64,000 nucleotides of DNA. Source: Pseudanabaena sp. FACHB-2040 (GTDB lineage Bacteria > Cyanobacteriota > Cyanobacteriia > Phormidesmidales > Phormidesmidaceae). Both the position numbers and the translations under genes were made by a program. Shown piece after piece: positions 38,771-41,069 of the stretch (the stretch's first letter is position 1; the number at the start of each line of letters is the position of its first letter). The stretch is from positions 124,001 through 188,000 of the forward strand of contig NZ_JACJQO010000001.1 in the NCBI RefSeq assembly GCF_014696715.1, written 5' to 3'. A model generated the notes under the pieces. It had not been told where the DNA came from and did not search any database. It saw nothing but the letters and a program-made list of their open reading frames with translations.

Positions 38771-39123
38771 AGATCTCTCGAAATTTTGGGCTCCAAACGG
38801 GCTGAGGCGCAATAGTCAGCGGTTAACAGCAGCAAGCAGGCGACATACAGCCGTAACGAGCAACCAGAATCTGTTGGCCTGCCAGCTTGCTGCCTGATTT
38901 TCTACATCCCGTTCGACATATCGCAGTCTACGAGCTAGAGCGGGGAAAGTCAGTCGTCGCAATGACAATGCCCCGCGAAGCAGAATAAATGCCTGTCATC
39001 CAACATAGAGGCTAGATTTAAAGGCTGGGAATCTGCCAATAGAAAGATTCTCAGTCTTTAGACACCTGGCCCTATCTGCTAGAATAATCTCGCATTGCGC
39101 CATAAATAGCAGCCCAAAAACCT
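38771..39123. other. Intergenic region between metQ and tRNA-Ala
   Basis: Divergent region carrying the metQNI promoter and the tRNA promoter. GCAAGCAGGC and GCCTGCCAGCTTGC blocks at about 38834-38888 could pair. I see no gene and no clear methionine riboswitch. Confidence 0.45.
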
Positions 39124-39196
39124 GGGGAATTAGCTCAGCTGGTAGAGCGCTGCGATCGCACCGCAGAGGTCAGGAGTTCGAATCTCCTATTCTCCA
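39124..39196 (+). tRNA. tRNA-Ala (anticodon CGC)
   Basis: All arms are present: a 7-bp acceptor with the G3-U70 pair that defines alanine tRNAs, a D arm (GCTC/GAGC), an anticodon arm CTGCG-ATCGCAC-CGCAG with anticodon CGC at 39157-39159, a 5-base variable loop, and a T arm AGGAG-TTCGAAT-CTCCT. The discriminator is A and CCA is not encoded. A HIP1 octamer GCGATCGC (39152-39159) spans the anticodon arm. Confidence 0.95.
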
Positions 39197-39200
39197 TTCC

Positions 39201-39290
39201 TGTACATTCGCACATTAAATGTCGCATTTCGCCAATTGATGTCGTTTTTCGCAAGATAGCATCGTTTTTCGAAGATCAATGCTGCAATAA
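39201..39290 (+). mobile_element. Candidate Tn7-like/CAST transposon end next to tRNA-Ala
   Basis: Four bases after the tRNA the sequence opens TGTACA, the terminal motif of many cyanobacterial Tn7-like elements including type V-K CASTs. It continues with four TTCG-led repeats starting at 39207, 39228, 39248 and 39268 (about 20-bp spacing): TTCGCACATTAAATGTCG, TTCGCCAATTGATGTCG, TTCGCAAGATAGCATCG, TTCGAAGATCAATGCTG. Such arrays are TnsB binding sites in transposon ends. No tnsB/C, tniQ or cas12k gene and no matching distal end is seen in the window, so it is probably an orphan end. Confidence 0.6.
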
Positions 39291-39621
39291 TTTTTTGGAG
39301 AACGTTGGATGCTATTCGCAACTAGAAGAACCGCATCGACGCCACAGCCGACTAAGACTCCAAAGCCCTTTTCTCCCTCGACAAAAATGCAGTCGATTGC
39401 ACCTCTAGCGAGTCATGACCAATGCGCCCGCCGAGAAGGCGTGTAGTTCGAGCAGAAGGTTGATTAAAGAAACTTTTTACGAGACGGGTGGATATTGGGA
39501 TAACTGCAGGAACTTCGATGAGTAGCGAATTGAAGTTGAACGACCTGGATTTAGCCAAGGATCCGGAGAACACACAACCGAGGTATCTATTTCTGAAGCG
39601 AATTGCAAAGACACAGTTTTG
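39291..39621. other. Non-core DNA between the transposon end and the GTPase gene
   Basis: Short frames are present: ATG 39309-39446 after GGAG (45 residues, starting MLFATRRTASTPQP) and ATG 39518-39625 (35 residues, MSSELKLNDLDLAKDPENT). Neither has a recognised family. They may be decayed transposon genes or cargo, or chance frames. Confidence 0.4.
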
Positions 39622-40173
39622 TTAGTGCTGTTGCAGAACAGGCGTTGTCAACATTTCCTGAATGAGGGCAATTAAAGCATGAGAGACAGATTCTTGATTG
39701 GTAGCATCTAAGCAAACTAGAGGAGGTCGCTTTTTCTCATCTAATAAACCTAAAGCCAGTGCGATATTGTCAGGTGCCCAGGCATTAGGGAAATCCATGT
39801 GAGAAAGACCAATAATCATGGGAATTTGAGCTCGTTGGCTCATGAAGCTGAGAATACGACGGCCGTTACGAAGATCTTGAGGCCGATGGGCATTGACTAG
39901 AAGAACGTAAGCGTGAGCTTTTCGGATGAGTATGTCCCACATGAAATCAAATCGAGATTGTCCAGGCGTGCCGTATAGATGCATTGCCTGCTCAGGCCCA
40001 ATAGTAAGACGACCAAAATCAAAAGCAACTGTAGTGTCTCGTTTGAGCAAAGCAATTTCATCAGTGGCTCGTCGGTCAGTATCTACTACTTCAATTTCGC
40101 TGATAGTGCGAATAAAGCTTGTCTTACCTGCCCCGACTGTGCCTGTAACCACAACCCGTAAAATTTCCATCAA
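39622..40173 (-). CDS. Small Ras-like GTPase, PATAN-associated
   Basis: The 183-residue GTPase has G1 GTVGAGKTS (10-18), a switch region with DTTVAFDFGR, and G3 YGTPGQSRFDFMW. The usual G4 NKxD is degenerate: LSHMD (about 123-127). It belongs to the bacterial small GTPases found beside roadblock or PATAN/DUF4388 proteins and used in polarity and motility signalling. It overlaps the upstream PATAN gene by four bases (ATGA-type coupling), so the two are cotranslated and probably interact. Nucleotide specificity may be relaxed. Confidence 0.82.
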   Translation of the reverse strand: MMEILRVVVTGTVGAGKTSFIRTISEIEVVDTDRRATDEIALLKRDTTVAFDFGRLTIGPEQAMHLYGTPGQSRFDFMWDILIRKAHAYVLLVNAHRPQDLRNGRRILSFMSQRAQIPMIIGLSHMDFPNAWAPDNIALALGLLDEKKRPPLVCLDATNQESVSHALIALIQEMLTTPVLQQH

Positions 40174-41069
40174 ACCCTACTCCGTAGAAAGCCAACTAAA
40201 TTTTGAAGCAGTGAAGTACTTACCGTTGGTTTCTCTACTTCTTCTATTCTTTCTTCATGAACAGGGTGAGAAAGCTTAGTAGCGTTACCGAGAACGTTTA
40301 GTTCACTGTTTGCAGTAAGTAAAGGAAATGTGGAAGTCACCAAAGGAACTTCTTCCACTAATCCAATCAACATCAGGCGGAAAGCAGCTTGTTGAATTAT
40401 GGCAATTGGTTGGTTAAGCTGCTTGGCAGTATCTCGTAGGGAAACTGTGCCCCTAGCAAATTCCCATACCTGCCATTCAAGAGCATTCAGACGAGCTTGA
40501 GGTTTGCCTGGCATGATGCTTTGAATAGCTGATTCAGCATCTGGGAGAGCATCTGCCAAAGCTTGCCAGTGCTTCAAAGTTCTCAATCCCACCAGTGCAA
40601 CTTCTATTGCAGGCGTGCTTAATCCAGTCATTTCTGTAGTAGGCAGAGGCGCTTTGCCATCCAAATCAAACTGACCAATGCCAAATTCAAAAAGCGTCCA
40701 AATTTTTTGCATTTGAGCCATAAACAGTAAGTTTAATTGCTCAGACTGAAGAGCCCCTTGCATTTTAAGAGCCAATCCTAAGGGGGTTTCAGGCCTGCAA
40801 AGGCCTTCAAGTCTCTCCATTACACGATGACTTAACCAGCCTTTTTCTGTAATCTTGGAGGCTAAACCTTGTCCATCAAGCCGTTCTGAAGCAGCAACTA
40901 CCCGCCCTTGACGGAACCAAACATAATAAGGGTTTTTCTTGGATTCTTGAGAATTAGCTGAAATATAAAGGGTGAGGCGACCAGTTTTACGTCCTTGATC
41001 AACCATTCTGAAGAGTTCAGCCAGGGAAAAGCCTTCGAGGGAACTAGATAAAGTCATCATCAGGGCCAA
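40170..41069 (-). CDS. PATAN (DUF4388) domain protein
   Basis: The 299-residue protein opens with a PATAN/DUF4388 domain (about 5-125; SLEGFSLAELFRMVDQGRKTGRLTLY, quoted here as SLEGFSLAELFRM...KTGRLTL). A middle helical region (about 190-245) resembles a winged-helix pair (LNALEWQVWEFARGT, SLRDTAKQLNQ). A polar C-terminus follows. PATAN proteins in cyanobacteria act in phototaxis and type IV pilus control, often as response-regulator outputs. It forms an operon with the small GTPase. An upstream element shared with two other transcription units lies at 41137-41173. Confidence 0.8.
   Translation of the reverse strand: MALMMTLSSSLEGFSLAELFRMVDQGRKTGRLTLYISANSQESKKNPYYVWFRQGRVVAASERLDGQGLASKITEKGWLSHRVMERLEGLCRPETPLGLALKMQGALQSEQLNLLFMAQMQKIWTLFEFGIGQFDLDGKAPLPTTEMTGLSTPAIEVALVGLRTLKHWQALADALPDAESAIQSIMPGKPQARLNALEWQVWEFARGTVSLRDTAKQLNQPIAIIQQAAFRLMLIGLVEEVPLVTSTFPLLTANSELNVLGNATKLSHPVHEERIEEVEKPTVSTSLLQNLVGFLRSRV

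Follow-up and report, generated by a model that had tools for sequence, protein, structure and literature searches.

The 64,000-nucleotide stretch of Pseudanabaena sp. FACHB-2040 DNA analyzed here (the window) contains a solo left end (LE) from a type V-K (Cas12k) CAST at its tRNA target, a decayed remnant that adds one more example to a known kind. An earlier note, made from the sequence alone, had proposed an orphan Tn7-like or V-K CAST end beside a tRNA-Ala gene, which might stand alone or mark the border of an element that had decayed. This proposal was supported by comparison with related genomes, in which homologous ends are likewise placed at tRNA genes, several of them followed inward by an anchor spacer that matches the tRNA and by cas12k. 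The best explanation, and one we hold to be very probable, is that a V-K element inserted past tRNA-Ala and that a later deletion into a roadblock gene left only the left end in place. The locus cannot be counted as a functioning V-K CAST, because searches for cas12k, tniQ and a right end all came back empty. PMC9938897 speaks of degenerated cas12k genes; the literature searched, mainly at the level of abstracts, held no mention of solo V-K left ends, and absence from print is not claimed. Coordinates of the features are given in Table 1.

Table 1. Features of the left-end remnant, its target tRNA gene and the adjoining genes (window coordinates).
Feature	Position	Strand	Basis or remark
tRNA-Ala(CGC), attachment-site gene	39124..39196	+	Rfam RF00005, 66.2 bits; ARAGORN: 39123-39197
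GTA (from GGTA), fits Cas12k GTN PAM	39142..39144	+	Sequence; PAM rule from PMC9938897
17-nt equivalent of an anchor protospacer	39145..39161	+	One mismatch to anchor spacers of L028 and L033 (both at tRNA-Ala)
ATTCC adjoining the left end, candidate target-site duplication	39196..39200	+	Sequence only
Orphan left end (LE), type V-K (Cas12k) CAST; inner border approximate	39201..39322	+	Model R1, 39201-39269; matrix scan extends it to the fourth site
TnsB-site-like repeat 1	39207..39224	+	Offset +6 as in relatives; departs from their consensus at just two positions, both variable
TnsB-site-like repeat 2, slight erosion	39228..39244	+	Offset +27 as in relatives
TnsB-site-like repeat 3, eroded in its second half	39248..39264	+	Offset +47 as in relatives
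Likely fourth TnsB-site-like repeat with TGC leader, cut where roadblock-gene homology begins	39307..39325	+	Matrix rank 1
Roadblock/LC7 gene remnant, 3' end lost at left-end junction	39321..39436	-	95% identical to G000:C8:224909-225025
Leader of roadblock gene, running into 3' end of GTPase gene	39501..39638	-	77% identical to G000:C8:225272-225406
Small GTPase gene, convergent with the tRNA	39622..40173	-	Pfam ATP_bind_1 and Roc
DUF4388 protein gene, 4-bp overlap with GTPase gene on the same strand	40170..41069	-	Pfam PF14332

The element terminus, TGTACA, begins at 39201, with four bases between it and the tRNA-Ala gene, and this spacing confirms the earlier note. A sequence-only model of 75 positions (model R1), prepared from the ends of ten relatives with the window left out, matched 39201-39269 with 52.4 bits (E=4.4e-15) in a search that covered the window plus two other stretches from the same genome. 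The sole other match up to E=10 was the same place in a stretch that overlaps the window (L005), and in the whole genome 39201-39269 was the only match at E<=0.001. Inside the terminus, four TTCG-led motifs had been described. Three of these, all TTCGC-led and beginning at 39207, 39228 and 39248, occur at the offsets seen in relatives (+6, +27 and +47), whereas the fourth (TTCGAAG at 39268) has no counterpart among the aligned relatives. The likely fourth conserved site is instead TTCGCAACTAG at 39315, at an offset of +114 compared with +104 in relatives, i.e., 10 bp further in. Of 127,972 window positions (both strands), a 14-column matrix made from the fourth sites of 11 relatives ranked 39307 first, which is where this site begins when its leader is counted. 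The repeats resemble those of V-K ends.

According to PMC9938897, a V-K element has its left end downstream of a tRNA gene that points toward it, with a CRISPR array near, and a truncated repeat with a 17-nt anchor spacer is found close to that end. A GTN PAM lies in the tRNA, 46-82 nt from the left end. The window is like these elements in its position downstream of a tRNA directed toward the end and in its PAM spacing: 56 nt separate the GTA in the tRNA from the left end, inside the reported range, so the PAM-like distance pointed out in the earlier note stands. The corresponding distance in relatives was 56-69 nt, with 91 nt at one eroded locus (L099).

The 443 bp following the tRNA were searched against 63 genomes of the family, the window's own included, and matches were found in 12; some of these matches covered the roadblock part alone. 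Searching at order level brought up no genomes beyond these 63. End-type matches in relatives were 77-89% identical over 45-70 bp and mostly stood beside tRNA-Val, tRNA-Ala or tRNA-Thr genes. Eleven end-type loci (L027-L037) were analyzed. Directly before the end, 8 of the 11 have an intact tRNA-Val(TAC), tRNA-Ala(CGC) or tRNA-Thr(CGT) gene; L035 and L037 have broken tRNA copies, and L032 has no tRNA. Seven of the 11 (L027, L028, L029, L030, L031, L033 and L036) carry GGGTTGAAAG just inside the end, followed by a tRNA-matching spacer in which at least 17 bases match the adjoining tRNA directly after GGTA, with no more than one mismatch in the first 17. The same arrangement of repeat and spacer, for tRNA-Thr, was found at L035. 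A cas12k gene lies close inside the end and reads toward it on six contigs (G033:C1, G044:C33, G023:C149, G031:C6, G032:C11 and, as a partial gene, G045:C26). Two of the Cas12k proteins were tested and both were identified as V_Cas12k (736.6 and 734 bits); the first also matches solved Cas12k chains. With these left ends the window shares the TGTAC terminus and the tandem TTCGC-led repeats. Right-end-type ends of the same genomes have ~40 bp in common with left ends and then, as judged by eye, a different layout; since the layouts part beyond ~40 bp, the window holds a left end.

The nearest counterparts are in Phormidium tenue FACHB-1052 (L028/L078) and Leptolyngbya sp. FACHB-60 (L033/L076), which have the window's target, tRNA-Ala(CGC), and the same offsets of the first three repeats. 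The anchor spacers of these two elements have a single mismatch to the window's tRNA-Ala. Unlike the window, where the end begins 4 nt past the tRNA, their ends begin 13 nt past it, and the anchor repeat and a full-length cas12k are still there. When the tnsB-like protein of L032 was used as query against four elements that were followed for ~30 kb, a partial match (37%, 197 aa) was obtained only in L033/L081. Right-end candidates in the four elements were loose matches and were dropped.

In contrast to a V-K CAST, no anchor repeat or spacer was found at the window's end, and no cas12k, tniQ or right end was found; a CRISPR array and a tracrRNA were likewise not seen. The anchor repeat (R* pattern) is absent within 700 bp of the window's end, and no spacer matching the tRNA occurs within 2.5 kb of it. 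The earlier note saw no tniQ, cas12k or distal end in the window, and this now extends genome-wide: Cas12k and TniQ searches gave no match in the organism's own genome, while the same searches matched 21 of 63 genomes for Cas12k (20 over the cut-off) and 25 of 63 for TniQ (21 over the cut-off), and model R1 gave no further end, either in the window (up to E=10) or genome-wide (E<=0.001). With 39198-39290 as query, a DNA search for a partner end returned, elsewhere, only two 14-bp chance matches. The Mu-transpos_C search for TnsB and the search for TnsA each gave no match in the genome, with the respective control also without a match. For TnsC, a TniB search gave four matches (E 2e-5 to 9e-4) inside reading frames of 827-894 aa, which we infer to be other AAA proteins. 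The assembly consists of 44 contigs, and missing parts may thus lie in gaps. Among plasmid records, a 531-bp query matched 45, and in the 20 matches listed only the tRNA part was matched; Cas12k was found in one plasmid record, from Gloeothece, at 29.8% identity.

The ~330 bp beyond the end, which the earlier note had taken as non-core DNA, proved not to be transposon DNA. Judged by its letters, the segment 39321-39638 is a roadblock/LC7 pseudogene, its two parts being 95% and 77% identical to a locus on another contig of the same genome (C8) that encodes an intact roadblock/LC7 protein (Pfam Robl_LC7). The window retains 31 aa of this protein at 93.5% identity. In the window the two pieces stand ~180 bp closer together than in the C8 copy, a 1-base gap is present, and the reading frame is lost. 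Both copies adjoin the 3' end of a GTPase gene, of which C8 keeps 17 C-terminal residues (71% identity). The GTPase/DUF4388 pair in the window (39622-41069) is the second copy of a set on a further contig (G000:C17), in which the GTPase is 65% identical and which includes a roadblock-type gene and a gene that, from its protein, we take to be globin-like. With the pair present twice in the genome, and the C8 roadblock copy with its GTPase tail, this appears to be a duplicated and scattered gene set.

Since the flank consists of roadblock remains beside the GTPase/DUF4388 pair, insertion followed by a deletion from the fourth site is the likeliest history. Under this model, a type V-K CAST would have inserted 4 bp past tRNA-Ala(CGC) with its cas12k/CRISPR side, i.e., the left end, facing the tRNA. 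By analogy with the relatives, targeting would have been RNA-guided, and the guide a short anchor crRNA reading the tRNA just after the GGTA of the D-loop. A later deletion would then have begun near the fourth TnsB site, taken out the cas12k side, the cargo, the transposition genes and the right end, and ended inside the 3' part of the convergent roadblock gene, such that ~122 bp of left end stayed beside an intact tRNA. The junction of the fourth repeat with the roadblock gene was read from the sequence, and a single deletion may have made it. No tRNA-Ala locus searched in relatives holds the GTPase pair or the same neighbors, so the empty site and the deletion are not directly seen. The only other genome of the same genus, which is 78% complete, had no match to the stretch or to its tRNA.

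Sorted by layout, as judged by eye, the 28 matches that model R1 gave in 13 of the 63 genomes comprised 19 left-end-type ends and 7 right-end-type ends; the other 2 (G060:C471:1586 and G033:C1:851300) fell on inner parts of right ends. Eighteen of the 19 left ends were assessable for an anchor repeat; the other, on G040:C71, was left out, its contig stopping before a possible repeat. An anchor repeat was present within 700 bp in nine of the 18 (G044:C33, G031:C6, G031:C7, G023:C149, G032:C11, G020:C221, G020:C124, G033:C1 and G045:C26). None was found within 700 bp in the other nine, which are the window, G045:C37, G040:C166 (L064/L077, from the Nodosilinea sp. BSH.14 MAG), G024:C293, G024:C49, G049:C293, G034:C1 (L100, the same DNA as L075, Phormidium sp. 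FACHB-1136), G031:C78 and G031:C16. The first four of these and G034:C1 closely follow an intact tRNA, and G024:C49 and G049:C293 follow a broken tRNA copy; the G031:C78 end has no tRNA, and that of G031:C16 is eroded and faces a tRNA-Val the other way. These ends are like the window in missing the repeat, whereas the lengths kept and the DNA joined to them differ. An opposite-facing end occurs 54 kb from that of G045:C37, which may therefore not be solo. The counts suggest that in this family of cyanobacteria left ends commonly lack an anchor repeat. A further remnant, in G025 (L070), stands outside the R1 matches.

We also read by eye ~110 bp downstream of 30 tRNA-Ala loci, a subset of the tRNA-Ala places listed, two of which were cut by contig ends. 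Five of the 30 carry a left end, the window included; of the 28 with enough DNA, these five have a V-K end and 23 have other DNA. Over the loci read, the sequence past the window's tRNA does not behave as ordinary intergenic DNA conserved downstream of tRNA-Ala.

Several other arrangements were observed among these loci. Just past the tRNA-Ala of L070 (G025:C4) is a 33-bp miniature scar, TGTACGTTCGCACATTAAATGTGCGAAGGGACA. CATAC flanks it on either side, with an extra T on the left, and it looks as though the two ends of an element had been joined directly. L029 (G020:C221) has one anchor repeat and a tRNA-Val spacer, with no more repeat copies in 700 bp and no Cas12k match on the contig, and appears to be a half-way stage of decay; what we presume from its protein to be a hisC-like gene starts at +575. 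A left end at tRNA-Val together with an opposite-facing end 54-91 kb away was found in three genomes (G045:C37:135640-190094, G032:C11:760298-839853 and G033:C1:760439-851199), with no Cas12k match on the G045 contig. No matching 5-bp duplication was seen by eye in any of the three, and we therefore do not claim the opposite-facing ends as partners. At L032/L110 (G031:C78:5624-5718) a right-end-type end lies head to head with a left end that is without its first ~14 nt, and a TnsB-like gene (Mu-transpos_C) is ~160 bp from the right-end-type end; it looks as if one element had landed on what remained of another. Finally, eight partial copies of tRNA-Ala(CGC) with a 104-bp period lie upstream of the real gene at L049 (G058:C2:1054708-1055613). 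Partial copies beside the real gene were also found at L046, L048, L051, L060, L061 and L063, and the copies have a palindromic insert of ~25 bp in the anticodon region.

The remaining readings of the locus were weighed against these data. That it is ordinary intergenic sequence resembling an end by chance has next to no probability: TGTACANTCGC with up to two mismatches occurs no more often than expected in the window (39 matches against 40.6), as such a reading would have it, but the match of an independent model over 69 positions at the E value given above, directly after a tRNA, led us to reject it. Other Tn7-like types also use tRNA genes (PMC11406308) and the window itself is without cas12k, so the end might belong to a type I CAST or a CRISPR-less element. 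We consider this very unlikely, as several similar ends lead directly to a V-K anchor repeat and cas12k, in a comparison limited to ends found by similarity, and both the layout and the PAM distance fit V-K. Equally improbable in our view is a small non-autonomous element with a diverged second end downstream. The right ends of relatives do share ~40 bp with left ends; yet model R1, which does find right-end-type ends in relatives (G032, G033, G044, G045 and others), detected no second place in the window or genome at the thresholds given above, and the roadblock, GTPase and DUF4388 sequences follow directly.

A different possibility is that the solo left end has been kept, its TnsB sites marking the tRNA site as occupied and lowering the rate of V-K insertion, so that the scar acts as a passive guard through target immunity. 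V-K systems seem to show target immunity, as stated in PMC11406308; four site-like repeats are still recognizable in the window, and left ends without an anchor repeat recur at the frequency reported above. Nevertheless, we regard such a role as unlikely, if somewhat less so than the readings above. The window's end is eroding, with repeat 3 damaged and repeat 4 cut, other remnants (e.g., L100 and L070) keep fewer sites, and no Cas12k or TniQ was found in the genome. Moreover, at L032/L110 a right-end-type end abuts a left-end remnant, an arrangement implying that a remnant can fail to keep other elements out. The nine left ends with an anchor repeat have a mean mutual identity of 88.3%, compared with 77.1% identity of the window to them, and the window is off consensus at 5 of 48 invariant and 12 of 21 variable columns. 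Part of this divergence may predate the loss, since the window's genus (g1) differs from that of the nine (all g7). Five other ends, four without the repeat and the unassessable L105, ranged from 68.6% (L099) to 89.2% (L034). The erosion speaks for drift and against maintained function. Because no Cas12k or TniQ was found in the genome, we infer that the left-end remnant is probably inert and eroding.

The window clearly shows the scar that a CRISPR-guided insertion left beside a tRNA gene, in a genome where no Cas12k or TniQ was found; by itself it leaves the picture of V-K function unchanged. As left ends without an anchor repeat seem to be common, past V-K activity could be counted from left ends alone, with no need for cas12k. 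The remnant left ends also form a natural set of sites for testing target immunity conferred by a lone end, and should they indeed guard their targets, solo left ends at tRNA genes would be more than debris.
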